From NCBI RefSeq assembly GCF_001429185.1, contig NZ_LMIW01000011.1, positions 62,001 to 126,000 on the forward strand: DNA of 64,000 nucleotides. The letters are read 5' to 3'. The notes beneath the pieces were generated by a model. The model was not told where the DNA came from. It saw only the letters and a program-made list of their open reading frames with translations, and ran no database searches. Numbering within the stretch: the stretch's first letter is position 1; the number at the start of each line of letters is the position of its first letter. Made by a program: the position numbers and the translations under genes. The DNA comes from Terrabacter sp. Root85 (GTDB lineage Bacteria; Actinomycetota; Actinomycetes; Actinomycetales; Dermatophilaceae). Positions 1-64,000 of the stretch are shown in pieces.

Positions 1-1026
1 CTCGCGTCGTTCGCGAGCCGACGCCTCGGCAAGGACGTGCTCGACCTCGAGGACGCCACGGTGTCCGTGGGCGAGCCGCCGCACGAGCGCCGCCTCCTCG
101 ACCACGTGACGTGGCGGCTCGCGCCGGGGGAGCGCATCGGCATCGTCGGGGTCAACGGCGCCGGCAAGTCGACCCTCCTGCGCGCGCTGACGGGTGAGAT
201 CCCGCTCGACGCCGGCCGCCGCAAGATCGGCAAGACCGTCGCCATCGCCCACCTCACGCAGGAGGTGCGCGAGCTCGAGCGCTTCGAGCAGTGGCGGGTC
301 ATCGAGGCCATCGAGGACGTCAAGCAGTGGACGACTCTCGGCGACAAGGAGATCAGTGCGAGCCAGCTCGCGACGCGTCTCGGCTTCCCCGGCGGTCGCC
401 AGCAGGCGCGGGTCGGCGACCTCAGCGGTGGCGAGCGACGCCGGCTCCAGCTGACCCGCCTGCTGCTCACGGAGCCCAACGTGCTCATCCTCGACGAACC
501 GACCAACGACCTCGACATCGAGACACTGACCTCGCTCGAGGACGTCCTCGACGGCTGGGCCGGCACCCTCGTCGTCGTCTCGCACGACCGCTACCTGCTC
601 GAACGGGTGGCCGACAAGCAGCTGGCCCTGCTCGGGGACGGCAAGGTGCGCGAGCTGCCGGGCGGCGTCGAGGAGTACCTCCGGTTGCGCACGGCGGACA
701 TCGCGGCCCAGGTCGCACGCGCGGCCGCGCCCTCGGCCCCGAGCAGTGGCGCGGCTGCCCCATCGAGCTCGCCGGACGGCATACCTGCTCAGGCTGCGGC
801 GACCGCGAGCCCGGCCGAGGTGCGCGAGGCGCGCAAGTCGATGGCGCGCATCGAGAAGCAGCTCTCGCGGTTGCAGGACCGTGAGGAGCGCCTGCACGGC
901 GACATGGCCGAGAAGGCCACCGACCCTGCGGCCCTCGCCGACCTCAACGCGAAGCTGCAGGCCGTCGTCACCGAGCGCGAGGACCTCGAGCTCGAGTGGC
1001 TCGAGGCCGCGGAGGTCGTCGGCTGA
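1..1026 (+). CDS. ABC-F family ATPase, 3' part (start outside window)
   Basis: The reading frame is open from base 1, so the true start lies upstream; 341 codons are visible. One ATP-binding cassette is seen: Walker A GVNGAGKST, signature LSGGERRRLQL, Walker B VLILDEPTNDLD and the switch histidine in VVVSHDRYLL. Past the cassette comes an Ala/Ser/Pro linker and a charged helical segment (roughly the last 70 residues, rich in Glu/Arg/Leu) that should form a coiled coil, as in the C-terminal domain of Uup-like ABC-F proteins. There are no membrane helices. ABC-F proteins are cytosolic ATPases that act on ribosomes rather than transporters. The visible cassette is probably the second of two. The subfamily cannot be decided from this fragment. 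Confidence 0.93.
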   Translation, partial: LASFASRRLGKDVLDLEDATVSVGEPPHERRLLDHVTWRLAPGERIGIVGVNGAGKSTLLRALTGEIPLDAGRRKIGKTVAIAHLTQEVRELERFEQWRVIEAIEDVKQWTTLGDKEISASQLATRLGFPGGRQQARVGDLSGGERRRLQLTRLLLTEPNVLILDEPTNDLDIETLTSLEDVLDGWAGTLVVVSHDRYLLERVADKQLALLGDGKVRELPGGVEEYLRLRTADIAAQVARAAAPSAPSSGAAAPSSSPDGIPAQAAATASPAEVREARKSMARIEKQLSRLQDREERLHGDMAEKATDPAALADLNAKLQAVVTEREDLELEWLEAAEVVG

Positions 1027-1056
1027 CTGTCCGGAGCCCGGGTCGCCGGGCTCTTG

Positions 1057-1082
1057 AAAGTATCTTGATGTCAAGATACTTT
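1057..1082. promoter_or_regulatory. Perfect dyad operator upstream of the VOC gene (MarR-type)
   Basis: AAAGTATCTTGA at 1057-1068 and its exact reverse complement TCAAGATACTTT at 1071-1082 are separated by TG. It ends 6 bases before the VOC start codon, so a bound protein would block initiation. Its AT-richness stands out here. The neighbouring MarR gene is the obvious candidate ligand: MarR dimers bind dyads of this size, and the TCTTGA core recurs in that gene's own promoter region. Binding is inferred. Confidence 0.75.
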
Positions 1083-1088
1083 AGGGGC

Positions 1089-1451: not shown

Positions 1452-1464
1452 CCGGGTGAGGACC

Positions 1465-2062: not shown

Positions 2063-2953
2063 ATGACCGAGCCCACGCCCCCGCCTGCGGCTGATGCAGC
2101 CGAGCCTGGCCCCGACCGTCCCGTCGCCCCGGGCGCTGCCGCTCGCTCGGCCGACTCCGCCTGGGACCCGCGGCAGTATGCCGTCTTCGCCGGCCACCGC
2201 GGCCGCCCCTTCGCCGACCTGCTGGCGCGCGTCGACGCCGACGACCCCGCGCTCGTCGTCGACCTCGGCTGCGGGCCCGGCGAGCTGACGCTCGGGCTCG
2301 CCCACCGCTGGCCCGGCGCACGGATCATCGGCGTCGACAGCTCTCCCGAGATGCTCGAGCGCGCCCGGGCCCTCGACGCCGACGGCCGCGTCGAGTGGGT
2401 CGAGGCGAGCGCCGAGGACTGGGACCCCACCGAGTCCGGCGGGTCGGTCGACGTCCTCGTCACGAACGCCACGCTCCAGTGGGTCCCGAGCCACCTGTGC
2501 CTCATCCCCTCGTGGCTCGAGAGCCTCGCGCCCGGAGGCACGTTCGCCATGCAGGTCCCCGCGAACTTCGACGCGCCGTCGCACCGGCTCATGCGCGAGG
2601 TCGCCGCGCACCACCCCCGCGCCGACGACCTGCGCCCGGGCCTCGACCGGGCCCAGGCCGTGGCCCGCCCGGAGACCTATGCCGCCCTCCTGCTCGACCG
2701 CGCCGCCGACGTCGACGTGTGGCAGACGACGTACCAGCACGTGCTCACCGCCGAACCCGACAGTCCGCACCCGGTGCTCGAGTGGGTGCGGGGCACCGGC
2801 CTGCGCCCGGTGCTCGGCGTCCTCGACGGCGACGAGCGAGACGCCTTCGTCACGGACTACGAGCGCGAGCTCGAGACGGCATACCCCCGTCGCGCGTTCG
2901 GCGTGCTCTTCCCCTTCACGCGGACGTTCGCCGTGGCCCGCACCCCGCGCTGA
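2063..2953 (+). CDS. tam: Trans-aconitate 2-methyltransferase-like SAM methyltransferase
   Basis: This 296-residue class I methyltransferase has the SAM-binding motif VVDLGCGPGELT, the acidic loop IIGVDSSPEM and the family motifs NATLQWVP and FAMQVPANFDAPSH that match trans-aconitate methyltransferase (Tam). Tam transfers a methyl group from S-adenosylmethionine to trans-aconitate, which detoxifies an aconitase inhibitor. The first 30 or so residues are Pro/Ala-rich and probably disordered. ATG 2063 follows a purine-rich stretch (GAAAGAAAGCGAG). It is divergent from the MarR gene with a dyad between them, so it may be a second target. The family is secure; the exact substrate is inferred. Confidence 0.85.
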   Translation: MTEPTPPPAADAAEPGPDRPVAPGAAARSADSAWDPRQYAVFAGHRGRPFADLLARVDADDPALVVDLGCGPGELTLGLAHRWPGARIIGVDSSPEMLERARALDADGRVEWVEASAEDWDPTESGGSVDVLVTNATLQWVPSHLCLIPSWLESLAPGGTFAMQVPANFDAPSHRLMREVAAHHPRADDLRPGLDRAQAVARPETYAALLLDRAADVDVWQTTYQHVLTAEPDSPHPVLEWVRGTGLRPVLGVLDGDERDAFVTDYERELETAYPRRAFGVLFPFTRTFAVARTPR

Positions 2954-2965: not shown

Positions 2966-4447
2966 TCAGGGCGCTCCGTCACCGCGGTGCCGCTCCTGCG
3001 CGACGACCTCCGTGAGGTCGGCCAGGCGCCGGCGCTGCTGCAAGGGTCGGGCCATCCGGTGGTTGCCCTCGAGACGTTCGGCGTTGCGGTCGAGGTAGGC
3101 CCAGTAGCCGGCGGTGAAGGGGCAGGCGTCGTCGCCGACCCGCTTCCTGGGGTCGTAGCGACAGCCGCCGCAGTAGTCGCTCATCCGGTTGATGTAGGCG
3201 CCGCCCGAGACGTAGGGCTTCGTCGCCATCGCTCCGCCGTCGGCGTGCTGGCTCATCCCGACGACGTTGGCCGGCATGACCCAGTCGTAGCCGTCGACGA
3301 ACCGCGTCTGGAACCACTCGGTCAGCGTGTCGGGGTCGTAGCCGCGCTGCGCCGCCCAGTTGCCGAGCACCATGAGGCGCGGGATGTGGTGCACCCAGCC
3401 GCGGTCGCGCACGCCCGCCACCGCGTCCTGCAGGCAGGCGGCCTCGACGGCGTCGGCGTCGAGCCGGTCGAACCAGTCCGGCAGTGGCGACCGCGCCTGC
3501 AGGGCGTTGCGGCGGCGGTAGGTCGGGCCGAAGTGCCAGTAGAGGTGCCAGACGTACTCACGCCAGCCGATGACCTGGCGCACGAAGCCCTCGACCGACG
3601 CGAGAGGTGCGTCGCCGTCGCGGTAGGCCTGCACGGCGCGGTCGGCGACCTCGACCGGGTCGAGCAGCCCGAGGTTGAGTGGCACGGACAGGAGGCTGTG
3701 CGCCATGGCCCAGTCGCCGCGGAGCATCGCGTCCTCGTGCGGACCGAAGGCCCCGAGTCGGTGCGTGACGAACCGTTCGAGGGCCGCCAGGGCCTCGCGA
3801 CGGGTCACGGCGAAGAGGCGTGGCCCGTCGACGCCGGTGGGTCGGACGTGGCCCTCGCGCGTCCAGCGGTCGAGGTCGTCGCGCACCTCGGCGTCGATGT
3901 CGTCCTCGCGCGGCTGGTAGGGCGCGGGCACATCGAGCCGCTCGGCTCCCTTGGGCGGGGGCTCGCGGTTGTCCTCGTCGAACGACCACCGTCCGCCGAC
4001 GGGGCGGTCGCCCTCGACGAGCAGGTCGAGCCGCTGCCGCTGGAAGCGGTAGAAGTCCTCCATCCGCAGCCGTCGCCGCCCGTCGGCCCACCGGGCGAAG
4101 TCCTCGCGCGACAGGCTGTAGCCAGGCGTCGGGTCGACGGACTCGACCATCCCCGTGGCGAGCAGGCGGCGCACGAGGCGCTCGGCGGCATACGACGTCG
4201 GCTCGTGGACCCGCACCGGCTCGCCCATCTCGCGCAACGCCTCGGTGTAGGTGTCGGTGCGCAGGAGCACGGCGGAGTCACCGAGCTCGGCGGCTCGGTG
4301 GCGCAGCGCCGAGAGCACGAGGTGCAGCTTCTGACGGTGGAACGGTCGTCGCCCCAGCGCCCGACCGCTCTCGACGAGCAGGACGCCTCCGCGGCCCACG
4401 TCGAAGTGCGGGCCGAGCTGGTCGGCGAAGAGCCAGCGCCTCGTCAT
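2966..4447 (-). CDS. Cryptochrome/photolyase, iron-sulfur bacterial (6-4) type
   Basis: This 493-residue flavoprotein matches the FeS-BCP/PhrB group. It begins MTRRWLFADQLGPHF (photolyase-related Rossmann domain), followed by the FAD-binding helical domain with HIPRLMVLGNWA and NVVGMSQHADGG. The C-terminal segment YCGGCRYDPRKRVGDDACPF supplies three of the four cysteines expected to hold a [4Fe-4S] cluster. Members repair (6-4) photoproducts using blue light, FAD and a ribolumazine antenna. Full length. It converges with the methyltransferase gene (12-bp gap). The upstream region is shared with the sigma-factor gene on the other strand. Confidence 0.92.
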   Translation of the reverse strand: MTRRWLFADQLGPHFDVGRGGVLLVESGRALGRRPFHRQKLHLVLSALRHRAAELGDSAVLLRTDTYTEALREMGEPVRVHEPTSYAAERLVRRLLATGMVESVDPTPGYSLSREDFARWADGRRRLRMEDFYRFQRQRLDLLVEGDRPVGGRWSFDEDNREPPPKGAERLDVPAPYQPREDDIDAEVRDDLDRWTREGHVRPTGVDGPRLFAVTRREALAALERFVTHRLGAFGPHEDAMLRGDWAMAHSLLSVPLNLGLLDPVEVADRAVQAYRDGDAPLASVEGFVRQVIGWREYVWHLYWHFGPTYRRRNALQARSPLPDWFDRLDADAVEAACLQDAVAGVRDRGWVHHIPRLMVLGNWAAQRGYDPDTLTEWFQTRFVDGYDWVMPANVVGMSQHADGGAMATKPYVSGGAYINRMSDYCGGCRYDPRKRVGDDACPFTAGYWAYLDRNAERLEGNHRMARPLQQRRRLADLTEVVAQERHRGDGAP

Positions 4448-4976: not shown

Positions 4977-6821
4977 TTGTCGGCAGACGCGACCTTGTGG
5001 TCGAGCGAGGCATGGGCCTCGGCCCCTGACGTGTCCCTCCTCGTCCGGACCCGAGAAGGCTCGGCCGAGGCGTTCGGTGAGCTGTGGCGTCGCCACCTGC
5101 CGGCTGCGTATGCCGTCGCGGGACGTCACCGTGGCCGCTCGGCCCCGGAGGACATCGTCGCCGAGGCCGCCGCGCGCGTCCTCGCGCTGATCCGCGCGGG
5201 CAAGGGACCCGACGAGCACTTCCGGGCCTACTTCCTCTCCGCCGTGCGGTCCGTCGCCATCGACCAGGGCCGCCGCGACCTGCGGGTCGTGCCGACCGAG
5301 GCCGACGACCTCGAGGTTCTCGCCGATCCGGCCGACGACCCCTTCGAGGGCCTCGCGACCGACGACGAGGGGCTCGCCCTCGTCCGGGAGGCCTTCGCCG
5401 GGCTCTCCGAGCGCGACCAGCGCGTGCTGTGGCACACCACGGTCGAGGGCGCCGCGCCGCGCGCCGTCGCGCCGGCCCTCGGCATGACCGCCAACGCCGT
5501 CAGCGTTCGCGCCATGCGGGCCCGCGAGTCGCTCCGGGCGCTCTACCTGGACGCCCGGGCCGAGCGCGGCCTCGCCGCCGCTGACACCGACGAGTGCCGC
5601 TGGACCGTGACCCACCTCGGGGCGCTCGTCCGCGGGCGCCTGCCCAAGCGGCAGACCGAGCGCGCCGAGGCGCACGTCGCCGAGTGCCCGCACGCAGCGA
5701 CCATCGCGGCCGACCTGAGGGTCATCCACGACGGGTTCCCGGCGCTCATCGTCCCGCTCGCGCTGCTGGCCGGTCTCGGCACGCCTGGCTTCGTCAGTGT
5801 GCCCGCCGTCGTCGGCCTCCCCGGTGGCGCCGGAGCGGCGGGCTTCGCCGGGTTCACCGGCGGCGCGGGGGGGCCCGCCCCGGGCGCGGGGGGTGCGGCT
5901 CAGCCTGCGCCGTCGCCCTCCTCCTCTTCATCCGCCGGGTCGGGGGCCGATGCCGTCGCCCAGGTGGCGAGCCGGGTCACCGGTCTCGTGGCCGGGCTCG
6001 CCGTCTCGGCCGGGGTCGCGGGGGCGCTGGCACTGCCCGGTGCCTCGCTCGCGGCGCCCTCGGCGACGGCCTCCCCGGTTCCGAGTGCGACGGCCTTGAG
6101 CGCCGCACCCGGGGCCGGCGCGGGAAGCGGCGCCGGCGCCGTCCCGAGTGCTTCCCCACGAGCCGTCGGCAGCTCACTGCCGATCTCCCCGACCGGCCTG
6201 CCCACCCGGACCATCAGCGCCTCGCCCATCCCGTCGGCGGCGACTCGGACGTCGACGTCGTCGGGCGACGTGGCGCGTGACCCGGGCAGCACGCCCTCGA
6301 CGGTCGGCGGCACCACGGTCCCTCGAGGCGGGACGTCGGCCGAGAGCGGTGGCGCGACCCCAGCGACTCCGGCGCCCCCGACGGGCACGGCCACCGGACG
6401 GCCGACGACGCCTCCGGCCACCACGCCGCCCGCCCCGCCGACGACGAGACCTCCGTCCCCCAGCCCGACACCCCCGGCGCCGACCACGACGCCCCCGGCG
6501 CCCCAGCCGGGTGGCGTCGCGCCCACCATCACGGTCCGCCTCGTGTCCGGACGCGACCCGGCGCGGATCTCCGTACGCGTGCGCTCCCAGGTCGAGGGCT
6601 CGATGACGGTACGCATCAGCAACGCGTCGGGCGCCGGGACGCTCTCCGTGCGCAACTCCAGCTGGACGTGCGCCCAGACGAGCACGTCCGCGGTGCGGTG
6701 CGCGGGGGAGCGGGGCCAGGCCCTGCTCGAGCAGTCCGGCACCGGAGCGACCCAGGCTGTCGTCGTGCGCGTCACCGACGCCGCCGGCGACACCTGGACC
6801 GAGACCCTCCGCCCCACCTGA
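4977..6821 (+). CDS. ECF sigma factor fused to a zinc-finger/membrane/extracytoplasmic extension (copy 1)
   Basis: About 614 residues from TTG 4977, preceded at good spacing by AGAAGG. The frame is open back to 4686, but those residues look non-coding and overlap the inverted repeat. Sigma2 lies around residues 20-100 (AEAFGELWRRHLPAAY, FRAYFLSAVRSVAIDQGRRD) and sigma4 around 135-190 (LSERDQRVLWHTTVEG, TANAVSVRAMRARESL). Next comes an anti-sigma-like segment with CRWTVTHL and AHVAECPHA (Cys/His spacing like zf-HC2). One or two hydrophobic helices follow, then a long Thr/Pro-rich linker and a C-terminal Cys-containing beta-like domain of about 90 residues. It resembles the large actinobacterial ECF classes with C-terminal extensions. 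A paralogue lies 1.1 kb downstream. Membrane tethering and envelope sensing are inferred. Confidence 0.85.
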   Translation: MSADATLWSSEAWASAPDVSLLVRTREGSAEAFGELWRRHLPAAYAVAGRHRGRSAPEDIVAEAAARVLALIRAGKGPDEHFRAYFLSAVRSVAIDQGRRDLRVVPTEADDLEVLADPADDPFEGLATDDEGLALVREAFAGLSERDQRVLWHTTVEGAAPRAVAPALGMTANAVSVRAMRARESLRALYLDARAERGLAAADTDECRWTVTHLGALVRGRLPKRQTERAEAHVAECPHAATIAADLRVIHDGFPALIVPLALLAGLGTPGFVSVPAVVGLPGGAGAAGFAGFTGGAGGPAPGAGGAAQPAPSPSSSSSAGSGADAVAQVASRVTGLVAGLAVSAGVAGALALPGASLAAPSATASPVPSATALSAAPGAGAGSGAGAVPSASPRAVGSSLPISPTGLPTRTISASPIPSAATRTSTSSGDVARDPGSTPSTVGGTTVPRGGTSAESGGATPATPAPPTGTATGRPTTPPATTPPAPPTTRPPSPSPTPPAPTTTPPAPQPGGVAPTITVRLVSGRDPARISVRVRSQVEGSMTVRISNASGAGTLSVRNSSWTCAQTSTSAVRCAGERGQALLEQSGTGATQAVVVRVTDAAGDTWTETLRPT

Positions 6822-10318: not shown

Positions 10319-10710
10319 CAGGGGCCGGTGACGGTCCTCGGACGAGCGGCGTCGCCCGACGTGCGTGGGGGTTCGCGGTCGAGCGACGCCTTGGCCGCTC
10401 GGCAGGGAGTTGGTGCCAGAGCCAGCCCCGGGTCCGCCAACTTAGGGGGGACTGACGGGCCCGTCCTCCCATGGTCGCACGGTTGGCAGAGATCGGCGCC
10501 GTCCGGCGCCCGGCACCCGACCGGCGCCGTGTGCCACCCGGCATACGCCGTCGCGCGGGACGTCGATGTGAGTGGGGTCACGGCGCGCCCGTGGCCGGGG
10601 CGGCACCCTCGCTCCCCACGAGTAGCATGGCCGAGGCGCACCCCGGCGCCCGCGTGGGCCGGGGTCGTCCGCACCCGAGTGCACCCCGATCCAAAAAGGA
10701 GCTGCGCCCT
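10319..10710 (+). promoter_or_regulatory. Non-coding region with likely glmU promoter
   Basis: No convincing gene is seen in these 392 bases. TAGCAT at 10623-10628 fits the actinobacterial -10 form TANNNT and would give a leader of roughly 75 bases. AAAAAGGA at 10693-10700 is the ribosome-binding site for the GTG at 10711. A GGCATAC heptamer sits at 10540. The -35 element is unclear. Confidence 0.45.
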
Positions 10711-13236: not shown

Positions 13237-13279
13237 GAGGGCGTATGCCGCCGGGACCCACCCGGCGGCATACGCCCTC
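13237..13279. terminator. Bidirectional terminator hairpin after prs
   Basis: A 19-bp perfect stem: GAGGGCGTATGCCGCCGGG (13237-13255), loop ACCCA, then the exact complement at 13261-13279. No T-run follows. It sits between convergent genes, and its arms carry one GTATGCC and one GGCATAC heptamer, the motif repeated through the window. Confidence 0.8.
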
Positions 13280-18028: not shown

Positions 18029-21709
<3,681 letters not shown>

Positions 21710-23351: not shown

Positions 23352-23403
23352 GCCGGCCGGACGGCATACGCCCTCGGGGTCGTGCCGGCCCACGCCGGAC
23401 GAA

Positions 23404-24957: not shown

Positions 24958-26608
<1,651 letters not shown>

Positions 26609-37420: not shown

Positions 37421-37467
37421 GTATGCCGCTGGGCTCGCTTCCACGAGAAGCGAGCCCAGCGGCATAC
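37421..37467. terminator. Bidirectional terminator after cbs (20-bp stem)
   Basis: GTATGCCGCTGGGCTCGCTT (37421-37440) is perfectly complementary to 37448-37467, with loop CCACGAG. The stem ends are an inverted pair of the GTATGCC/GGCATAC heptamer, as in the terminator at 13237-13279. It lies between the convergent cbs and HhH-GPD genes. Confidence 0.85.
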
Positions 37468-38786: not shown

Positions 38787-38910
38787 ACCTCTCGGGCGGT
38801 GGGCGGGACGCTCCGAGTATGCCGTCGAACCGGGGAGGGCTCCCCATTGCACGGGGCGGCGCCGGCAGGTGAGGATGGGCCCGGTGTGCAGGGGTGAAGG
38901 GGAGAGATCT

Positions 38911-45009: not shown

Positions 45010-45444
45010 TCAGGGGAGGGGGAGGCCGACCCGCACGGTGCCGTGCTGGATGCGGACGGCATACGTCGGCAAGGCCACCTCGGGATCGTCGAGGGCGGCG
45101 CCGGTGCGCAGCGAGAAGACCTGCTTGAGCAGCGGTGAGGCCACGGTCGGCTCGCCGCCGCGGTCGCCGGTCAGGCCCCGCGAGAGGACCGCTGCCCGCG
45201 CGTACGGGTCGAGGTTGTCGACGGCGTAGATCATCCCGTTGGGCAGCAGGAAGAGGGCCGCCTGGGCGCCGCCGGGGAGGAGCACGGCGATACCACGGCC
45301 GGGCACGAGCGCCGTGACCGGGCAGGCGGACACCCACTGTCTCGCTCCGGGGGACGGCAGGATGCCGGGCCGCACGACGTTGCGACCGGCCGCGGCCGCG
45401 ACCTCGGCCGACATTCCCTGGGGTGGGCTGACGAGTGTGGTCAT
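45010..45444 (-). CDS. nirD: Nitrite reductase small subunit NirD
   Basis: A 144-residue protein with a Rieske-like fold lacking the usual iron-sulfur ligands, as in NirD: VSACPVTALVPGRGIAVLLPGGAQAALFLLPNGMIYAVDNLDPYARAAVLSRGLTGDRGGEPTVASPLLKQVFSLRTGAAL. It partners NirB in NADH-dependent nitrite reduction to ammonium. It starts 18 bases after the nirB stop codon and is the last gene of the nitrate-assimilation operon. A short N-terminal extension precedes the domain. Confidence 0.96.
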   Translation of the reverse strand: MTTLVSPPQGMSAEVAAAAGRNVVRPGILPSPGARQWVSACPVTALVPGRGIAVLLPGGAQAALFLLPNGMIYAVDNLDPYARAAVLSRGLTGDRGGEPTVASPLLKQVFSLRTGAALDDPEVALPTYAVRIQHGTVRVGLPLP

Positions 45445-49583: not shown

Positions 49584-51727
49584 GCGATGGCCTCCAGGCG
49601 GACGGCGCACGCCTTGAACTCGGGCATGCGGCTGGTCGGGTCGAGGGCGGCGTGGGTCAGCGAGTTGGCTCGCGCGTCGCCGGCCCAGTGGAAGGGCAGG
49701 AAGACGACGTCGGCGCGCATGTCGTCGTCGACGCGGACGACGGCGCGGGTGCGGCCGCGACGGCTCACGACGTCGGCGAGGTCGCCGTCGCCGAGCCCGG
49801 CCGCGTCGGCCGTGTCGGGGTGCACCTGGACGAACATGTCGCCTGCCGCCGCCGACAGCTCGGTGACGAGCCGCGTCTGGGCGCCGGACTGGTAGTGCTG
49901 CAGCACCCGCCCCGTCGTCGCGACCAGGGGGTATGCCGCGTCGTCGGCCTCCACGGGCCCCACGTGGTCGACGGCGACGAAACGGGCGCGGCCGTCGGGT
50001 GTCGCGAAGGCGTCGAGGAAGAGCCGCGGCGTGCCCTGCGGTCGCTCGGTGCTGCACGGCCAGTGCAGGCTCTCGCCGGCATCGAGCCGCTCCCACGTCA
50101 CCGCGGAGTAGTCGGCCGGTCCGCCGGCCGAGGCCCGGCGCAGCTCGTCGAAGACGACCCGAGGGTCGGTGGGGAAGGCTGTGCTGCAACCGATCCGGCG
50201 TGCCAGGTCGCTCCAGAGCTCGAGCTCGCTGCGGCACCCCGCGGGGGCGTCCAGCGCCTTGCGGCGGCGCAGGACCCGGCCCTCGAGGTTGGTCAGGGTG
50301 CCCTCCTCCTCGGCCCACTGGAGCACGGGGAGCACGACGTCGGCGACGGCGGCCGTCTCGGAGAGGACGAAGTCGGAGACGACGAGCAGGTCGAGGGCGG
50401 CGAGGCGCTCGGCCACGACCCGCGCGTCGGGCGCCGAGACGACGGGGTTGCTGCCGTGGACCATGAGGACGCGGGCGCCGCCGTCGGTGCCGAGTGCCGA
50501 CAGCAGCTCGAAGGCGCTGCGGCCCGGACCCGGCAGGTCCCCGGGGTCGATGCCCCAGACCGCGGCGACGTGGGCCCGGGCGGCCGGGTCGTCGATCTTG
50601 CGGTAGCCGGGGAGCTGGTCGGCCTTCTGGCCGTGCTCACGTCCGCCCTGGCCGTTGCCCTGGCCGGTGATCGTGCCGAAGCCGGTGCCGGGGTTGCCGG
50701 GCAGCCCGAGCGCGAGGGCGAGGGCGATGAAGGCCGTCACCGTGTCGGTGCCGCTCGCGTGCTGCTCGCTGCCGCGGGCCGACAGGACGTAGGCGCCGCG
50801 CTCGGTGTCGCGGGCGCGGGCCAGCGCGGCGACGGCCGCCCGCATCGTCGTGACGGCGACACCCGTGACCCGCTCGACGCGCTCGGGCAGCCACTGCGCG
50901 GCGATCGGCCAGAGGTCGTCGAAGCCCGAGGTGCGCTCTGCGACGAAGCCGCGGTCGGCATACCCCTCAGTGACGGCGAGGTGGAGCATCCCGAGGGCCA
51001 GGGCGGCGTCGGTGCCGGGGCGCAGCTGCAAGTGCAGCCCGCCGCCGTCGACGGCCTTGGCCGCGGTCGGCGTCAGGCGCGGGTCGGCGACCATGAGGCC
51101 TCCGGCGTCGGCGGCGCGGACGAGGTGCGTCAGGAAGGGCGGCATCGTCTCGGCGGGGTTGGCGCCGAGGAGCAGCACGGCGTGTGCCGAGCCGATGTCG
51201 GTGACGGGGAAGGGGAGACCCCGGTCGAGACCGAAGCAGCGGATGCCGGCGGCGGCGGCCGAGCTCATGCACCAGCGGCCGTTGTAGTCGATCTGGCTCG
51301 TGCGGAGCGCCACTCGCGCGAACTTGCCCAGCTGGTAGGCCTTCTCGTTGGTCAGACCCCCACCGCCGAAGACTGCCACGGCGTCCCGCCCGTGTGCCGC
51401 CTGCGTCCGCACGATGGCTTCGGCGACGACGTCGAGGGCCTCGTCCCACGACGCGGGGGTGAGCTCGCCGTCGCGGCGGACCAGGGGAGTGGTGAGCCGC
51501 CGGGGTGTCCGGAGGAGCTCGGCACTCGTCCATCCCTTCTGGCACAGGCCACCCCGGTTCGTCGGGAAGCGACGAGGGCTGACCGTGAGGTCGGCCGCCG
51601 ACGACCCGGTGAGCGTCATCGCGCACTGGAGCCCGCAGTAGGCGCAGTGCGTCGCGACGCCCGCCCGCTCGGAGGGGACGTCCCCACCGAGCGAGCGGGA
51701 CGGCATTCTCCATGAGGTGGCGGTCAT
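49580..51727 (-). CDS. nasA: Assimilatory nitrate reductase, molybdopterin catalytic subunit
   Basis: A 715-residue molybdoenzyme. The N-terminal [4Fe-4S] ligands CAYCGLQC and GGLCQKGW are present, then the bis-MGD domains: FGGGGLTNEKAYQLGKFAR, CMSSAAAAGIRCFGLDRGLPF, LLLGANPAETMPPFL, GFGTITGQGNGQGGREHGQKADQLPGYR and the C-terminal MolyDOP-binding domain (VFLPFHWAGDARANSLTHAALDPTSRMPEFKACAVRLE). No Tat signal, so it is cytoplasmic; it reduces nitrate to nitrite. ATG 51727 overlaps the narK stop codon (ATGA). Electrons should come from the FAD/BFD protein next downstream. Confidence 0.95.
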   Translation of the reverse strand: MTATSWRMPSRSLGGDVPSERAGVATHCAYCGLQCAMTLTGSSAADLTVSPRRFPTNRGGLCQKGWTSAELLRTPRRLTTPLVRRDGELTPASWDEALDVVAEAIVRTQAAHGRDAVAVFGGGGLTNEKAYQLGKFARVALRTSQIDYNGRWCMSSAAAAGIRCFGLDRGLPFPVTDIGSAHAVLLLGANPAETMPPFLTHLVRAADAGGLMVADPRLTPTAAKAVDGGGLHLQLRPGTDAALALGMLHLAVTEGYADRGFVAERTSGFDDLWPIAAQWLPERVERVTGVAVTTMRAAVAALARARDTERGAYVLSARGSEQHASGTDTVTAFIALALALGLPGNPGTGFGTITGQGNGQGGREHGQKADQLPGYRKIDDPAARAHVAAVWGIDPGDLPGPGRSAFELLSALGTDGGARVLMVHGSNPVVSAPDARVVAERLAALDLLVVSDFVLSETAAVADVVLPVLQWAEEEGTLTNLEGRVLRRRKALDAPAGCRSELELWSDLARRIGCSTAFPTDPRVVFDELRRASAGGPADYSAVTWERLDAGESLHWPCSTERPQGTPRLFLDAFATPDGRARFVAVDHVGPVEADDAAYPLVATTGRVLQHYQSGAQTRLVTELSAAAGDMFVQVHPDTADAAGLGDGDLADVVSRRGRTRAVVRVDDDMRADVVFLPFHWAGDARANSLTHAALDPTSRMPEFKACAVRLEAIA

Positions 51728-53464: not shown

Positions 53465-54295
53465 ATGACCACGGCTGCTGACCAGGCCTCCCTCAACACC
53501 CTGTCCGTGGGCACGGCCGGGCCGCGCATCGCCTTCCTGCACGGGCTCTTCGGCCAGGGCCGCAACTGGAACCAGATCGCCAAGGCGGTGAGCGGCCCGG
53601 AGGGCACGGACGCCCGCTGCCTGCTCGTCGACCTCCCGGACCACGGCCGGTCCCCGTGGTCGCAGCAGTTCTCGCTCGACGCGTATGCCGACGCCGTGGC
53701 GGCGACGCTCCGTGCGGTCGGCGAGGGGGAGCAGTGGGCCGTCGTCGGCCACTCGCTCGGCGGCAAGGTCGCCATGGTGCTCGCGCTGCGCCACCCCGAG
53801 CTGGTCGAGCGACTCGTCGTCGTCGACATCGCGCCCAAGGGCTACGGCTCGCTCGAGCGCTTCGAGGGCTACATCCGCGAGATGCAGGCCCTGCCGCTCG
53901 GCGAGCTGACGAGCCGCGGTGACGCGGAGGCCCGCTTCAGCGAGCCCGACCCCGGCGTCAAGGCCTTCCTCCTGCAGAACCTGCGCCGCGACGGCCAGAC
54001 GTGGCGCTGGCAGGTCAACCTCGACCTCGTCGCCGGCGACGCCGCGCTGGGGGTCGACTCACGCATCGCCGACTGGCCCCATGACGCCGACGAGCTCGCG
54101 CCCTACGAGGGCCCGGTGCTGTGGGTCGCCGGCGGCGACTCTCGGTACGTCAAGCGCGAGGACGGCGAGCGCATGCGACGCCACTTCCCGCGCACGCGGC
54201 TCTTCACGATCAAGGGCGCCGGTCACTGGGTGCACACCGACGCGCCCGAGATCATCGTCACCGCCCTGCGCCGCTTCGTCGCCGACCCCGCCTGA
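53465..54295 (+). CDS. Alpha/beta-fold hydrolase
   Basis: A 276-residue cytosolic hydrolase: oxyanion loop IAFLHGLFGQGRNW, nucleophile elbow VVGHSLGGKVAM (Ser), PVLWVAGGDSRYVK near the acid residue and GHWVHTDAPE (catalytic His). It resembles YbfF-like esterases (LLVDLPDHGRSPWSQQFSLDAYADAV). The natural substrate is unknown. It is divergent from narK and probably leaderless. Confidence 0.9.
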   Translation: MTTAADQASLNTLSVGTAGPRIAFLHGLFGQGRNWNQIAKAVSGPEGTDARCLLVDLPDHGRSPWSQQFSLDAYADAVAATLRAVGEGEQWAVVGHSLGGKVAMVLALRHPELVERLVVVDIAPKGYGSLERFEGYIREMQALPLGELTSRGDAEARFSEPDPGVKAFLLQNLRRDGQTWRWQVNLDLVAGDAALGVDSRIADWPHDADELAPYEGPVLWVAGGDSRYVKREDGERMRRHFPRTRLFTIKGAGHWVHTDAPEIIVTALRRFVADPA

Positions 54296-54372
54296 CCGGC
54301 ATACGCCCGCTCCCGCCCACGTCGCGAACGTCGCGTTCGGTGACGAACTCTCTGTTCTAACAACGCTTTCGC

Positions 54373-55122: not shown

Positions 55123-56612
55123 GAAGCCTGCTCCTGGGGGTCGGGGTCCGGCGTGCTGCGGGGGTCGCTGCCGGCAGTGCTGCTGGGGGTGGTGACGGGT
55201 GCGGGGGGATCAGCGGGACCGCCGGCGGCGGACGCCTCGGGCTCGTGCGGCTGCCGGACCGGCAGGCGCAGGACGACCTCGGTGCCGTCGGCGCGGCGCC
55301 GGATGCGGGCCGTGCCGCCGTGGCGCTCCATGCGGCCGATGATCGACTCGCGCACGCCGGCTCGGTCGTCGGGCACGGTGTCGAGGTCGAAGCCCGCGCC
55401 GTGGTCGCGGACGAACGCCTCGACGGCGTCAGGTCCGACCTCGACGTAGGCGCTGACGGGCGGGCTCGCGTGGCGCACGGCGTTCCACGTGGCCTCGCGC
55501 ACGGCCTTCACGAGGGCGTCGAGGTGCTCGTCCATCGGCCGGTCGCCGGTGACGACGAGCTGGACGGGCACGCCGTGGAGGTCCTCGACCTCGCCCATGG
55601 CCGCGGTGAGCGCGGCACCGAGCGTGCCGGCCCGGGCGTCCTCGTCGTAGAGGTAGCTGCGCAGCTGCCGCTCCTGGGCCCGGGCGAGACGCGCGACGGT
55701 CGCGGCGTCGCCGGACTGGCGCTGGATGAGGGCCAGGGTCTGGAGCACCGAGTCGTGCAGGTGGGCGGCGATGTCGGCACGTTCGGTGGCCCGGATGCGC
55801 GCGGCCTGCTCGAGGCGCAGGTTGCTCCAGAGCCGCAGGATCCACGGTGCCGACAGGACGGCGACCCCGACGAGGGCGGCGAGGACGGCACCCGCCACCT
55901 GCCACAGCTCGGTGAGGTTGGTGCCGCGCACGAGCAGGCCGACGAGACCGAGGATGGTCAGGCCGAGGCCGACGACGAGCCAGATCCACCGCACCGGGCG
56001 GCGCGCGCCGAGGGTGTCGGTGTCGTCGAGCTGCGACCAGAAGAAGATCGCGCCGATGACGATGGCGACGACCGGGAGGATGAGCTCCGCGTGGACGTCG
56101 AGACCGGCACCCCCGAGCCAGAGCGCCCCCGCGACGGCCAGAGCGGCCACGCCGAGGAGCGTGATGATGACGGCCTGGTTGCCGCTGCGCAGCCACGTGC
56201 GCAGGCCGGCGAGGTCGACGTGGTGCTGTCGGACGCCGGGAGAGCCGGACGTCGTGCCGGCGCTCGCGGGGCCGGCGGCGATCGAGTCGCCCGGCGACAG
56301 GGGCGGGGCGGAGGAGACGGCGGGGTCGACGTCGCCGACCTCGCGCATCGTGGCCCAGAGGAAGACGTAGACGACGAGCCCCGCGCCGAAGGGGATGCTC
56401 GTCAGGACGAGCGCCACGCGGACGGCAATGACCGGCAGGCCGAGGTGCTCGGCGAGCCCCATCGCGACTCCCGCGATGACCTTGCCCTGCCGCTGGCGCA
56501 CGAGCGGGGGCCGTGGCGTCGCCCGCCAGGCCGGGCGCACGGGGCCCGTTCCGTTCTCGTATGCCGTCTGCACCGTTCCATCCTGACCCACCCGGCGGGC
56601 GAGAGCGACCAT
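55119..56612 (-). CDS. Sensor histidine kinase with N-terminal PspC domain
   Basis: A 497-residue membrane kinase. A PspC domain (residues 38-95: KVIAGVAMGLAEHLGLPVIAVRVALVLTSIPFGAGLVVYVFLWATM) is followed by a linker, four more hydrophobic helices, then HisKA_3 (RADIAAHLHDSVLQTLALIQRQ, phospho-His) and an HATPase_c domain (VREATWNAVRHA, VRDHGAGFDLD). The PspC fusion suggests sensing of envelope stress. ATG 56612 was chosen because of the strong AAAGGAGG. It is divergent from a second PspC protein and overlaps the response-regulator gene. Similar to LiaS/MacS-like systems. Confidence 0.93.
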   Translation of the reverse strand: MVALARRVGQDGTVQTAYENGTGPVRPAWRATPRPPLVRQRQGKVIAGVAMGLAEHLGLPVIAVRVALVLTSIPFGAGLVVYVFLWATMREVGDVDPAVSSAPPLSPGDSIAAGPASAGTTSGSPGVRQHHVDLAGLRTWLRSGNQAVIITLLGVAALAVAGALWLGGAGLDVHAELILPVVAIVIGAIFFWSQLDDTDTLGARRPVRWIWLVVGLGLTILGLVGLLVRGTNLTELWQVAGAVLAALVGVAVLSAPWILRLWSNLRLEQAARIRATERADIAAHLHDSVLQTLALIQRQSGDAATVARLARAQERQLRSYLYDEDARAGTLGAALTAAMGEVEDLHGVPVQLVVTGDRPMDEHLDALVKAVREATWNAVRHASPPVSAYVEVGPDAVEAFVRDHGAGFDLDTVPDDRAGVRESIIGRMERHGGTARIRRRADGTEVVLRLPVRQPHEPEASAAGGPADPPAPVTTPSSTAGSDPRSTPDPDPQEQAS

Positions 56613-56697: not shown

Positions 56698-58044
56698 ATG
56701 ACGAAAAGCAATGACGCCCCTCCGCAGGGGCACGGCCTCGACGGTTTCTACACCGCTCTGCGACGCCCGGGGATCGTGCGTCAGGGAGACGGTCGCTGGT
56801 TCGCCGGCGTCGCGACGGGCCTGGCCCGTTGGCTCGGCGTCGACCCGCTCGTCGTCCGGGCGGGCTTCATCCTCTTCTCCATCTTCTTCGGGATGGGCGT
56901 CGCCCTCTACCTCGTGCTGTGGCTCCTCATGCCCGACGAGCGCGGCGAGATCCACGTCGAGCGCGCCCTCAAGCACGGCGAGGGCAGCTCGATCTTCCTC
57001 CTCGTCGTCACGGCCATCTCGGTCCTCGGTGGTGGGCCTTGGTGGGGCGGCGACTCGAGGGGCTTCCGCTTCTTCGGCTTCGTGCTCCTCGTCGTGGGGG
57101 CCTGGTGGTTCGCGACCCGGACCGCCACCGGCCGCGAGCTGATGCAGCAGGCGCCGTGGCGCAACCGCGGCACCGGCGGACCGGGTGCAGCGGGTGCCAC
57201 CACCGTCGACCCCGTGACCGGTGCAGCCGCCGGCCAGCCCGGCACGGGCGCCGGCACCCCGCCGGCCGCGGCCGCGACGGCATACGGCTCGACGGGCAAC
57301 GCGGCAGCCAACGCCGGCGCGACCCTCGCGACGCCGCGGCCACCCGCACCGACGCCCGTCCGTGAGCGGACCCGCGCGATCGGCTTCGCCGGTGGGCTGC
57401 TCGTCCTCGGGCTCGCCATCGTCGTCGGTGTCGTGATGTCGTCCGTCGCCCAGGCCGCCGGCTGGCCGGGCAACCACGTGGCCGTCGGGATCGCCTCCGG
57501 GCTGGGCGTGCTCGGCCTCGGTATCCTCGTGGCCGGCATCGCCGGCCGCCGGGCCGGAGGGCTCGCGTTCTTCGCCGTGACCGGCATGATCGCGGCCGCA
57601 GCCACGACGGCTGCGCCGATGGGTCTGTCCCAGCCCTGGCAGGCCGGCGACCGCAGCTACACGGTGACCTCGATGACGCCGGCTCCAGCCTTCGAGCTCG
57701 GCCTCGGCCAGATGAAGGTCGACCTGCGCGACGCGAACTGGAAGGGCACCACCGGAACGGACACCGTGACGACGACGATGGGCGTCGGCGAGCTCGACCT
57801 CGTCGTCCCCGAGGGCGTCAACGTGGTCGTCAACACGAGGGCACGGGCCGGCGAGATCATCGCCACGGGACCCGGCGTGGCCGGCGAGGGCATGGGACGC
57901 GTCGGTCCGGACCAGCTCCAGCACGAGGGCACGGGCTGGACGCAGAAGGTCACCTTCGGTGACGCGACGAAGACCCCCGAGATCGTCGTCGACGCCGACC
58001 TCGGCGTCGGCCAGATCAAGATCACGACGGCGAGCGCGTCATGA
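56698..58044 (+). CDS. PspC-domain membrane protein with LiaF-like C-terminus
   Basis: A 448-residue protein. PspC domain near residues 25-85 (RWFAGVATGLARWLGVDPLVVRAGFILFSIFFGMGVALYLVLWLLMPDER), then further helices, a Gly/Ala/Pro-rich linker and three hydrophobic segments. The C-terminus is a beta-rich repeat domain (LGLGQMKVDLRDANWKGTTGTDTVTTTMGVGELDLVVPEGVNVVVNTRARAGEI) like the LiaF/DUF2154 adhesin-type fold. Divergent from the PspC-kinase, it may act as its accessory sensor or inhibitor, as LiaF does for LiaS. Its stop codon overlaps the next gene's start. Confidence 0.85.
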   Translation: MTKSNDAPPQGHGLDGFYTALRRPGIVRQGDGRWFAGVATGLARWLGVDPLVVRAGFILFSIFFGMGVALYLVLWLLMPDERGEIHVERALKHGEGSSIFLLVVTAISVLGGGPWWGGDSRGFRFFGFVLLVVGAWWFATRTATGRELMQQAPWRNRGTGGPGAAGATTVDPVTGAAAGQPGTGAGTPPAAAATAYGSTGNAAANAGATLATPRPPAPTPVRERTRAIGFAGGLLVLGLAIVVGVVMSSVAQAAGWPGNHVAVGIASGLGVLGLGILVAGIAGRRAGGLAFFAVTGMIAAAATTAAPMGLSQPWQAGDRSYTVTSMTPAPAFELGLGQMKVDLRDANWKGTTGTDTVTTTMGVGELDLVVPEGVNVVVNTRARAGEIIATGPGVAGEGMGRVGPDQLQHEGTGWTQKVTFGDATKTPEIVVDADLGVGQIKITTASAS

Positions 58045-58619: not shown

Positions 58620-58749
58620 GCCACGGCCGCCGACGCCAGCGCACGGCATACCTCCTCCCGGGTGGTTGCTGCACGTGGCGTCGGCGGTCGTGACTAGGCT
58701 CGGCAGCACGCTCGCCGGTCACGTCCGGCACTCGCAGTGGGGAGAGAAC

Positions 58750-61706: not shown

Positions 61707-61770
61707 GGCGGCATCCTGCCATCGCGAGCCATCGGGCGGGCGCACCCCGGGTCCGGCGACCCCTTTGTCC

Positions 61771-61838
61771 CATGTGTCACATGCGCCCCGATATCACCGA
61801 TTCGGAATGAGTTCCGGGGGTTTTCCGGACATGTGACG
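61771..61838. promoter_or_regulatory. Possible regulatory dyads upstream of the large secreted protein
   Basis: CATGTGTCACATG (61771-61783) is a near-perfect dyad, and ACATGTGAC recurs at 61830-61838. Between them lie AT-richer sequence (ATATCACCGATTCGG) and TCCGG...CCGGA. The TGTGNNACA-like element could bind a CRP/FNR-type protein. The gap 61707-61929 holds no gene. Confidence 0.35.
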
Positions 61839-61929
61839 TGTTCCTCAATACCTTGGGCCGAGGGATGGCGTGGCGGACACGGCTCGGGCAGGGAACGGGC
61901 ACACGACACGCCCCCACATGGGGAGAATC

Positions 61930-64000
61930 ATGGTGCGCAAGTCGATTCGTCGTGCCCTCGGAGCCGGTCTCACCTCGCTCCTCGTCGTCGTGGGAGCGCT
62001 GGCCGGCCAGTCGCCTGCGTATGCCGCCGACCCCGACCCCGGGGTCGACCGCGTCGTCGCGCTCCTGGGCGGCAGCGGAGGCACGCGGAACCTCGCCGCC
62101 TGGACCTCCGGGCTCGCCGGCATCGGCGCGCTCGGGAAGCCGATTCCCTTCGTGTCGGCGAGCCCCGGTGGCCTCGCCGGCGCCGATGACCTGGTCGACA
62201 GGGGCGTGTCCCCGGCGCTCGCCGGCACGACGACGTGGGCCGACCTCGCGACGTCGGGCGAGTCGGTCGCCCTGCCGGGAGGTCGCACCGGGACACTCGA
62301 CGTCTCCGTCGACGACCTCGCCGACGGCAAGCGCGTGCACGTCAACCTCGTCGTGACCCGCACGGCGACCCAGCAGGCGCTCACCGTCAGCTCCACGAGC
62401 CCCAAGGTCGAGCTGTCCTCACCCAAGGGGGTCACGGCCACCGTCGAGGCCACGCTCTCCCTCTGGGTCGTCTGGACCGGACCGACGACCAACCGCGTCT
62501 ACCTCGCCAGCGACGCGGCTCACGCGCCGCGGCTCGACGTCGACGTGACGGCGCAGCTGTCCGGCGCAGCCAAGGCCGCCGTCGGCATCCTCGGCGTCAC
62601 GCTGAAGAGCACCGACTTCACCGTCAAGGCGCACGCGTACGCCCGCGTCAACGACCCGAACAACGACGGGGTCCTCGCCTTCGACGCAGCCGGTGTCGGC
62701 GACGGTGAGCTCGCCGCGGACGGCTCCCTGGCCGGCCTCGTGTCGGCTGACCTCGACCCCACCGGCTCGGCCTCCGATCCCGGGACCCCGGGGTCGGTCA
62801 CGGGCACCCTGTCGATCGCCGCGGACACGAGCGGCATCGCGGGCGTCAGCTTCCCGAGCAACGTCGCCGCCGACGTCACGCTGACGTGGGCGAACATCTC
62901 GACCGGCACGCCGACCGTCTCGGCGCCGACCCTCGCCACCCTCGTCGGCAAGTTCCAGAACATGAGCCTGCGCGACCTCGCCGACGGCCTCGCCCAGGTC
63001 GCGGTCGCCCTGACCGGGATCCAGCAGGCGAAGTTCGACCCCGACGGCGCCGGACCGCTCCCGACGACCGGCAACCTCGACCTGCCCTTCCTGCGCGGCA
63101 CCGTGTCCGACGCCGTCAAGGCCAACCAGGTCCTCGTCGACTTCCTCAAGGCCAACGTCGTCCAGCAGCCGGACCCCGACCAGCCGTCGCCCGCGGGCTT
63201 CGACGCGACAACGGTCGGCAACCCGACCTTCGACTCCCTTCAGGACCTCATCGCCAAGCTCAAGGCGGCGGGCATCGGCCTCGACGACCTCGCATGGGAC
63301 CCGACCACGAGCAAGCTCGTCTTCCGCATGCAGATGGTCAAGACCGCGCCGAGCACCGGGGTCGCCATGGACGCCGGCAGCGCCCGCACCTCCCGGCCCT
63401 CGGCGACGTATGCCGCCACGGGCCTCACGCTCGACGACGGCTCCCAGCCGTGGCAGGCGAACCAGTGGACCGGCATGCGCGTCATGGCCGGCACGTCCGC
63501 CGGTGAGATCGCCTCGAACACGAAGAACGCGCTGACGTTCTCGGGACCCTGGATCGGTGGGCAGCCCTCTGCCGGAACGCCGTTCGTCATCGTCGGTCCC
63601 GAGGCCCAGCTCGGCGCCGTGACCTTCGGCGACCGGCTGACCGACCAGCCCGTCGCCGGTGGACCGCGCCGCGGCATCCTGCGGGCGAACTCCGCCCAGA
63701 CCTTCGCCACCGTCAAGCCGTCGTTCGCGGCGGACCTGACGCTCGTGCTCGACCTGCAGGACGCCCGCACCGGTGCGGCGTGCATCGGTTTCGAGGGCAA
63801 CACCGAGGCCTGCCCGTTCCTCCAGACGACGGGGGCGTTCAAGACCAACGTCACCTCGCTCCCGCTGGGCGCCGACCGTGTGCTCATCCGCACCGGCAGC
63901 CCGCTGCTCACGGCCGACTTCCCGATCGACACCGCGGTCGACTTCACCGCCAACGCCGGCTTCTTCCAGGTGCGCCTCAAGGGGCACCTCGCGGTGTGCA
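61930..64000 (+). CDS. Large secreted protein of unknown function (3' end outside window)
   Basis: Read by hand from the sequence: ATG 61930 is preceded by GGGGAGA, and the frame stays open for 690 codons to the window end. The signal peptide MVRKSIRRALGAGLTSLLVVVG ends near SPAYAAD. The mature part is Thr/Asp/Gly-rich with alternating short strands and phrases such as LRDLADGLAQ and DDLAW, plus a late Cys pair (GAACIGFEGNTEACPF). No sortase, repeat or catalytic motif is seen in the visible part. Codon usage and third-position GC are normal for the window. Probably a large surface or wall-associated protein. I do not recognise a family. Confidence 0.85.
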   Translation, partial: MVRKSIRRALGAGLTSLLVVVGALAGQSPAYAADPDPGVDRVVALLGGSGGTRNLAAWTSGLAGIGALGKPIPFVSASPGGLAGADDLVDRGVSPALAGTTTWADLATSGESVALPGGRTGTLDVSVDDLADGKRVHVNLVVTRTATQQALTVSSTSPKVELSSPKGVTATVEATLSLWVVWTGPTTNRVYLASDAAHAPRLDVDVTAQLSGAAKAAVGILGVTLKSTDFTVKAHAYARVNDPNNDGVLAFDAAGVGDGELAADGSLAGLVSADLDPTGSASDPGTPGSVTGTLSIAADTSGIAGVSFPSNVAADVTLTWANISTGTPTVSAPTLATLVGKFQNMSLRDLADGLAQVAVALTGIQQAKFDPDGAGPLPTTGNLDLPFLRGTVSDAVKANQVLVDFLKANVVQQPDPDQPSPAGFDATTVGNPTFDSLQDLIAKLKAAGIGLDDLAWDPTTSKLVFRMQMVKTAPSTGVAMDAGSARTSRPSATYAATGLTLDDGSQPWQANQWTGMRVMAGTSAGEIASNTKNALTFSGPWIGGQPSAGTPFVIVGPEAQLGAVTFGDRLTDQPVAGGPRRGILRANSAQTFATVKPSFAADLTLVLDLQDARTGAACIGFEGNTEACPFLQTTGAFKTNVTSLPLGADRVLIRTGSPLLTADFPIDTAVDFTANAGFFQVRLKGHLAVC

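Follow-up and report, generated by a model that had tools for sequence, protein, structure and literature searches.

A candidate self-DNA uptake word with dialects in Terrabacter sp. Root85 and its family

We analysed a 64-kb stretch of the Terrabacter sp. Root85 genome (contig NZ_LMIW01000011.1, positions 62,001 to 126,000; hereafter the window) and the short DNA word that recurs throughout it, the octamer CGGCATAC. This word is a sharply defined 8 bp that is kept beyond the effects of codon use and composition. Its dialects and its absences are distributed by subclade inside one family, which we take to be the Dermatophilaceae in the GTDB sense (Intrasporangiaceae), and nearly all sampled members of this family carry comEC and a TadE gene. 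Among named genomes compared by LeuS, the nearest are Terrabacter (98% for Terrabacter sp. Ter38 and 96% for Terrabacter sp. Root181), with species of Intrasporangium and Humibacillus next at no more than 87%. By analogy with known systems, CGGCATAC is a candidate self-DNA uptake sequence with dialects, and we consider this the probable reading.

An asymmetric octamer is repeated in the window and across the genome

The heptamer GGCATAC, read as GTATGCC on the opposite strand, occurs 39 times in the window, 20 times on the forward and 19 times on the reverse strand, which reproduces exactly the number and all the positions reported in a first-pass annotation. The six or so copies which that annotation expected by chance proved too generous, as dinucleotide shuffles gave a mean of 1.32 and a maximum of 5, and none of 100 shuffles reached 39. 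A third-order Markov model, which had been proposed as a test of the excess, likewise gave 4.0 heptamers against the 39 found, and 2.05 copies of CGGCATAC. While the repetition itself stands, the length first given to the unit does not: C precedes 38 of the 39 heptamers and G follows 24, so the word is longer than a heptamer. The actual word is CGGCATAC, present 38 times in the window and often as CGGCATACG. Predicted genes (all gene coordinates are predictions made in this analysis) cover 86% of the window, though 13 of the 38 octamers lie outside them, and copies thus occur in coding and intergenic DNA alike, as the annotation had said. The two copy-bearing terminator stems that it described are true inverted repeats, at 13237-13279 and 37421-37467. 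Copies and hairpins are listed below by coordinates and strand.

778..784, +, GGCATAC copy in predicted gene 37-1026, read GGC-ATA
2176..2182, -, GGCATAC copy, word match
2878..2884, +, GGCATAC copy, word match
4187..4193, +, GGCATAC copy, word match
5108..5114, -, GGCATAC copy, word match
10540..10546, +, GGCATAC copy outside predicted genes
13237..13279, no strand, hairpin of two inverted copies with 19-bp arms, predicted dG -45.3, between the 3' ends of convergent predicted genes 12240-13220 (+) and 13296-13856 (-)
13243..13249, -, GGCATAC copy, left arm of hairpin 13237..13279
13267..13273, +, GGCATAC copy, right arm of hairpin 13237..13279
18421..18427, +, GGCATAC copy, word match
19560..19566, -, GGCATAC copy, word match
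22415..22421, -, GGCATAC copy, word match
23363..23369, +, GGCATAC copy outside predicted genes
25033..25039, -, GGCATAC copy, the sole one of 39 without preceding C
25154..25160, -, GGCATAC copy outside predicted genes
28209..28215, -, GGCATAC copy, word match
28713..28719, +, GGCATAC copy, word match
30098..30104, +, GGCATAC copy, word match
30860..30866, -, GGCATAC copy outside predicted genes
32030..32036, -, GGCATAC copy, word match
32218..32224, +, GGCATAC copy, word match, read GGC-ATA
37421..37467, no strand, hairpin of two inverted copies with 20-bp arms, predicted dG -46.9, between the 3' ends of convergent predicted genes 36013-37383 (+) and 37487-38059 (-)
37421..37427, -, GGCATAC copy, left arm of hairpin 37421..37467
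37461..37467, +, GGCATAC copy, right arm of hairpin 37421..37467
38782..38788, +, GGCATAC copy, word match
38817..38823, -, GGCATAC copy outside predicted genes
41905..41911, +, GGCATAC copy, word match, read GGC-ATA
44715..44721, -, GGCATAC copy, word match
45058..45064, +, GGCATAC copy, word match
47785..47791, +, GGCATAC copy, word match
47860..47866, -, GGCATAC copy, word match
49194..49200, +, GGCATAC copy, word match
49931..49937, -, GGCATAC copy, word match
50957..50963, +, GGCATAC copy, word match
53683..53689, -, GGCATAC copy, word match
54298..54304, +, GGCATAC copy outside predicted genes
56559..56565, -, GGCATAC copy, word match
57279..57285, +, GGCATAC copy, word match
58645..58651, +, GGCATAC copy outside predicted genes
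62019..62025, -, GGCATAC copy outside predicted genes
63408..63414, -, GGCATAC copy outside predicted genes

The Root85 genome (4.87 Mb in 15 contigs) holds 2,414 copies of GGCATAC, compared to 378 of the reversed control, and 2,300 copies of CGGCATAC, compared to 237, or about one per 2.1 kb. Of the 258 octamers in 544 kb of Root85 sequence, 128 are preceded by A and 168 followed by G, giving (A)CGGCATAC(G); the flanks of the window copies vary, and extended AT-rich flanks are absent from the 258. The word is not palindromic, its complement being GTATGCCG.

The word is maintained beyond codon use

In 493 predicted genes of Root85 the octamer was observed 163 times, compared to 9.5 expected from shuffles of synonymous codons, the largest of 30 such shuffles giving 14. 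Both orientations of the octamer took the top two scores among strand-specific octamers with at least ten copies. Among coding copies one orientation is the commoner (104 vs 59), mostly as TAT-GCC. The word also coincides with rare codons, as had been pointed out in the first-pass annotation: the copies at 778, 32218 and 41905 read GGC-ATA, and 94 of 193 TAT codons and 13 of 26 ATA codons in these genes lie inside the word. When we compared Root85 with four other Terrabacter genomes, the octamer diverged less than its flanks in all four cases (0.029/0.059, 0.067/0.163, 0.028/0.090 and 0.020/0.150, octamer/flank), with the exact octamer conserved in 31/38, 16/25, 34/38 and 24/32 instances. This slower divergence is partly general to words with three A/T letters, whose mean exact conservation in the same genomes was 0.85, 0.52, 0.72 and 0.63, and the nearest genome does not lie above such words. 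Selection (or drive) on the DNA word, which the annotation had proposed and which a codon-shuffled count equal to the observed one would have contradicted, is strongly supported because of the excess over synonymous shuffles, the slower divergence than in the flanks and the even spacing described below.

Intergenic preference, inverted pairs and strand balance

The density of the word in Root85 is 1.38 per kb in intergenic DNA compared to 0.34 per kb in coding sequence, and 224 copies from 464 kb divide into 76 intergenic, 140 coding and 8 straddling ones. An intergenic preference was also seen in genomes G026, G069 and G037, in a comparison that omitted sets below 55 kb and had no result for G014 and G084, where no genes were called. 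Pairs of copies within 60 bp are mostly of the -+ type (13, compared to 2 +-, 1 -- and 0 ++, with 1.84 expected of each), and six of the 13 -+ pairs have a spacing of exactly 22 bp. All 12 adjacent -+ pairs are intergenic and lie at most 95 bp beyond the 3' end of a predicted gene, six between convergent genes, five in a -/- and one in a +/+ setting and none between divergent genes; their predicted folding energies range from -22 to -48 kcal/mol. In 18 other genera carrying CGGCATAC, all 13 pairs within 60 bp were in opposite orientation.

Strand totals show no bias, with 84,573 forward and 84,440 reverse copies in the 90 family genomes that have at least 250. Over 380 kb of one Root85 contig, in which origin and terminus were not located, we counted 92 forward and 83 reverse copies and saw no replication polarity; unlike KOPS-like signals (FtsK-orienting polar sequences), no 38-kb bin was skewed by more than 3 copies.

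Copies are evenly spaced and avoid each other on the same strand

After close groups had been merged, the 240 gaps between copies in Root85 had a coefficient of variation of 0.76, compared to 1.03 for random placement with fourfold weight for intergenic DNA, and none of 1000 placements was as low; on each strand taken separately the coefficient was 0.62. Neighbouring single copies lay on opposite strands in 151 cases and on the same strand in 62. This excess of opposite neighbours stems mainly from the regular spacing on each strand, the opposite share being 0.71 compared to 0.66 when one strand was shifted against the other (65 of 2000 shifts as high). At distances of 60-1000 bp there were 10 same-strand pairs compared to 56.8 for uniform placement, while opposite-strand pairs numbered 55 compared to 57.4. 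Permuting the strand labels over fixed positions gave 32.2 same-strand pairs, and 10 was never reached in 5000 permutations.

This same-strand avoidance was met in exploring the Root85 genome and was then examined by label permutation in the 18 other genera and in dialect sets (see below). The 18 genera pooled had 45 same-strand pairs compared to 65.0 expected (0/5000), three CGGCATCC genomes 45 compared to 57.9 (19/5000) and one CCGCATCG genome 33 compared to 41.0 (155/5000). Avoidance was weaker in stretches of the four other Terrabacter (14 same-strand vs 28 opposite-strand pairs at 60-1000 bp), which are not independent because they are orthologous to one of the Root85 stretches. Two other words of the Root85 genome showed no such avoidance, in small numbers. 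Opposite-strand pairs at these distances were divided equally between convergent and divergent arrangements in Root85 (28 and 27), so that it is the strand which seems to saturate, and not the stretch on one side of the word; the 18 other genera had 54 and 36. The longest site-free gap of the 380 kb is a ribosomal protein operon (C1:172771-183041). That such deserts are mobile islands was rejected, as the three largest proved to be this operon and genes without visible mobile marks, judged from the proteins' first residues.

The word and its dialects are confined to one family

We searched 149 family genomes from 53 genera and found at least 250 copies of CGGCATAC in 90, with a range from 7 to 4,724. 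No comparable excess was present in 184 genomes from 19 other families of the order (highest count 167, control 184) or in a 195-genome sample of the phylum (highest 386 in 7.5 Mb, control 176), the two samples sharing two genomes; among sampled genomes the excess is confined to one family. Counts also differ sharply between relatives. In genus g36, G125 has 37 copies compared to 1,251-1,660 in the other four genomes; in g26, G069 has 19, G025 1,062 and G096 3,681; and Intrasporangium flavum has 66 compared to 2,765 in I. oryzae. We had suspected a loss of comEA in I. flavum, wrongly, as the gene is present and cut by the end of the examined locus.

In stretches of several CGGCATAC-poor genomes a related octamer leads, namely CGGCATCC, CGGCGTAC or CGCCGTAC, while CCGCATCG and CCCCTTCG are leading octamers less like CGGCATAC. 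Genome-wide, CGGCATCC reaches 3,816 and 3,838 copies in g17, 3,949 in g27 and 2,099-4,480 in four genomes of g45, compared to 241-1,336 in the other 142 family genomes. CGGCGTAC reaches 2,111-4,185 in g41, 785-2,618 in g49, 2,216 in g24, 2,529 and 1,125 in two of four g3 genomes, 1,359 in g25 and 1,463 in G069, and ranges from 39 to 1,011 in the remaining genomes. Two g45 genomes, G044 and G079, carry both CGGCATAC and CGGCATCC (1,217 and 2,195 copies, respectively, in G044), and G124 and G137 of g33 have less CGGCATAC and more CGGCGTAC than their six congeners. In a quick ComEC tree, built from the 36 of 44 sequence sets with a ComEC match, two CGGCATCC rows fell in separate parts, each among CGGCATAC rows. 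There was no clear word in 60 kb each of G056, G058, G061, G045, G049 and G125.

As a control, some word exceeded the threshold in 18 of 58 loci from outside the family, weakly (7-11 copies, ratio at most 13.6), while 12 of 13 family loci had CGGCATAC or CGGCATCC at 8-19 copies; one family locus lay within the outside range (CGGCATCC in L090, ratio 9.2). Loci under 14 kb were omitted, which kept 13 of 16 family and 58 of 64 outside loci. Genera g38 and g39 (G037, loci L186-L188; G126, loci L064-L067) show an enrichment of CCCCTTCG, whose sequence sets it apart from the other dialects; in G037 it is mostly intergenic (4.44 vs 0.50 per kb) and forms seven -+ pairs within 60 bp. In G041 (L068-L071), one CRISPR-array-like word family occurs about 79 times in 80 kb and masked other words there.

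Comparison with known uptake sequences

The traits listed for the uptake signal sequences (USS) of Pasteurellaceae and the DNA uptake sequences (DUS) of Neisseriaceae are frequency, balanced orientations, fairly regular spacing, inverted pairs, a preference for non-coding DNA, variants in relatives and a strong consensus (PMC1626085). The Root85 genome has the traits of this list, and our layout tests preceded the comparison with it. Like DUS, CGGCATAC is a short asymmetric word with thousands of copies equally divided between strands and with family-wide dialects, including two-dialect genomes and inverted pairs tied to terminators (PMC3630211, PMC1626085); a bilingual genome has been reported for the DUS of Simonsiella (PMC3630211). 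Its sequence is unrelated to DUS and its hosts are high-GC Gram-positives. The neisserial system proper, with ComP on a PilM-type type IV pilus, differs in that we did not meet PilM-type machinery here beyond 5 of the 149 genomes, and with no PilM match in Root85 no ComP-type receptor can be assumed. The word shares with USS its density, even spacing, non-coding preference and terminator-like pairs (PMC1626085, PMC7811141) and one orientation that is commoner in genes (PMC2346458), but lacks extended AT-rich flanks. Overall, uptake sequences fit the word in most distributional features that could be tested, the exceptions being gene-end bias and enriched one-letter variants. Of the two likenesses suggested in the first-pass annotation, that to uptake sequences holds for most layout traits; that to HIP1 (highly iterated palindrome 1) of cyanobacteria fits less well because CGGCATAC is not a palindrome.

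Competence genes are present in Root85. On contig C13, comEA (SLBB and helix-hairpin-helix domains) and comEC lie together, and the same contig carries a tad-type locus with a secretion ATPase, two T2SSF-type membrane proteins, TadE and a TadE/G-like protein; a second tad-type locus, with TadE and a Flp pilin match, is found on C10. Across the family, ComEC is present in 145 and TadE in 144 of the 149 genomes. Root85 in this respect resembles Micrococcus luteus, in which transformation requires tad genes, minor pilins included (PMC4322843). The main text of that paper never uses the term 'uptake sequence', and the 184 genomes of other families without an excess of CGGCATAC do not single out the Micrococcus family.

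A model of self-DNA uptake

We favour uptake because uptake drive is the one known process we can name that makes such genomes. A surface component of the competence apparatus (a pilus of the tad/Flp type with ComEA and ComEC, as in M. luteus) would bind word-bearing DNA much better than other DNA; word-bearing alleles would then be imported and recombined more often, so that the word would accumulate, and the preference would favour DNA of the same dialect. Intergenic copies would be the least costly, and inverted pairs could be recruited into terminator-like hairpins.

An additional copy closer than about 1 kb seems superfluous only when both lie on one strand, so the word would be read strand-specifically, and this redundancy is compatible with a reader that treats the strands separately. 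For H. influenzae, uptake is no greater with a pair of USS lying within 100 bp of each other than with a single USS (PMC7811141). By a further step, each strand of an incoming fragment would need its own copy. We regard it as possible but doubtful that the uptake word is read per strand and licenses a carrier strand, for example the one passing ComEC; a genome would then have to place copies independently on either strand at intervals of about 4 kb, a same-strand neighbour closer than about 1 kb would be useless, and dialect shifts would act as mating barriers between genera of the family.

If uptake were confirmed, this would be a new system of the DUS and USS kind in a very different bacterial group. 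In the literature consulted, uptake sequences are described for Pasteurellaceae and Neisseriaceae; among the literature matches listed, with preprints and most subscription journals outside their scope, no paper dealt with this word or with uptake sequences of Actinomycetota, and those listed for the letters of the word appeared to concern primers and adapters. If they had arisen once more in high-GC Gram-positives with a tad/Flp-type competence pilus, this would show that self-DNA tagging evolves readily, would offer many species with natural dialect swaps for locating the reader, and would make it possible to predict among which actinobacteria genes are exchanged and by what means these can be transformed. 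The word's strand-specific spacing offers an approach to its reading mechanism that we have not met in accounts of DUS or USS.

Several observations weigh against uptake. The genes comEC and TadE also occur in genomes without the word and therefore do not predict it; their presence, nearly universal in the family, was rejected as a predictor. PilM (PF11104) had no match in Root85 and matches in 5 of 149 family genomes, and a PilM-type pilus was discarded as the machinery. ComEA was rejected as the reader, as no residue of its helix-hairpin-helix domain visibly tracked the dialects in 35 sequences. In Root85, the second T2SSF-type gene of the C13 locus, which we name tadC by its position, stops 73 positions into a 125-position domain. 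About 10.2 kb further on lies a piece of 56 residues that has no Pfam match itself and that we read as the end of tadC. The gene thus appears, from its sequence, to be split by an inserted element, and Root85 itself may therefore not be competent. The insert (C13, about 100,142-110,327, outside the window) encodes a serine recombinase with Resolvase and Recombinase domains and holds no copy of CGGCATAC, compared to about five expected at genome density. No report of competence in this family was among the matches listed.

The behaviour of the word also departs from that of uptake sequences in several respects. Within the 493 predicted genes the deciles are flat, without the bias towards gene ends that is a trait of Pasteurellaceae USS. 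H. influenzae and N. gonorrhoeae hold an excess of singly mismatched uptake words (PMC1939737), and in contrast to DUS such copies of CGGCATAC are mostly not enriched: 15 of 24 one-letter variants were at or below expectation in 544 kb of Root85, in a test biased downward because the shuffled pool holds the word's own TAT and ATA codons. The variants with the highest ratios were CGGCATAT (2.35-fold, 2 copies), CGGCACAC (1.84) and CGGCATAA (1.67, 1 copy), and CGGCATCC stood at 1.41, while CGGCATAC itself was 19-fold over shuffles, which places perfect copies far above near-matches. Same-strand avoidance, a further difference from DUS, is unexpected for an uptake word, and we met no report of it for DUS or USS. 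It was absent in three CGGCGTAC genomes (56 vs 57.3) and in G069 (11 vs 12.3), dialect C being covered by three of its four sets. Counting neighbours alone gave no significant difference across the 18 other genera (96 same, 111 opposite, p 0.33), and G119 leaned the other way (22 same, 13 opposite). Finally, intergenic preference was absent in the CGGCATAC genome G119 (0.41 vs 0.46 per kb) and for the dialect words in G040, G057 and G081.

A serine-recombinase insert in a tad locus recalls elements sitting in competence genes; for Neisseriaceae, integrative elements have been traced by the way DUS dialects are distributed (PMC7371117).

Alternative explanations

Strand-specific behaviour would also be shown by a Chi-like signal or a methylated site. 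The actinobacterial helicase-nuclease AdnAB might halt degradation at CGGCATAC in one orientation and would then need regular copies on each strand, a reading that we hold to be unlikely. Like Chi, the word is an asymmetric octamer with orientation-specific behaviour, its strand-specific regular spacing is what an orientation-specific signal at two-ended breaks would need, and known Chi words differ between species. RecC, moreover, is present in 29 of 47 word-poor and 28 of 87 word-rich genomes, as if the word accompanied another enzyme (Fisher p 0.0017 by genome; 10/19 vs 13/34 by genus); the limits of the two classes were set after the counts were known, and the comparison left out five genomes of dialect B and ten of dialect C. 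On the other hand, the orientation of E. coli Chi follows replication, whereas the word shows no replication polarity over the 380 kb, and neither its total absence in some genera nor hairpin pairs past gene ends would be expected. RecC (PF04257), a component of the best-known Chi system, has no match in Root85 and is absent from 59 of the 87 word-rich genomes, and a RecBCD-type Chi was rejected on this lack of a match and on the commoner RecC of word-poor genomes, an association that is weaker by genus. Within the family RecC is patchy (59 of 149 genomes, one of nine Terrabacter). An epigenetic mark, in which a methyltransferase modifies one strand of the word for strand discrimination or segregation and per-strand copies are needed within about 1 kb, would be suited by same-strand redundancy without convergent or divergent asymmetry (28 vs 27); it seems improbable, given that methyltransferase targets are usually shorter than contiguous asymmetric words of 8-9 bp and that the intergenic hairpin pairs would be left unexplained.

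Slightly more improbable is a HIP1-like element or a nucleoid-protein binding site. HIP1 is likewise a very frequent octamer of coding and non-coding DNA, and abundance on both strands and a patchy family distribution would agree with either; however, HIP1 is palindromic and CGGCATAC is not, and strand-specific avoidance would be unexpected for a packing protein on double-stranded sites. A transcription terminator element spread through the genome would explain why all 12 adjacent -+ hairpin pairs lie past gene ends, but only 24 of 258 copies are in these pairs and 163 copies are inside predicted genes, which makes this very improbable. Hardly credible, lastly, is an artefact of composition, codon use or sequencing adapters. 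Composition and codon use were ruled out by the dinucleotide shuffles, the Markov model and the synonymous shuffles, and the flanks of the copies vary. The Illumina P7 adapter does contain ACGGCATACGA, a real coincidence, but across 544 kb the 24-base adapter is matched at no more than 18/24 positions and the single-contig assembly G119 carries 1,901 copies, and contamination was rejected on both counts. As ACGGCATACGA happens to match the extended word, genuine reads from these species could be shortened when adapters are trimmed.

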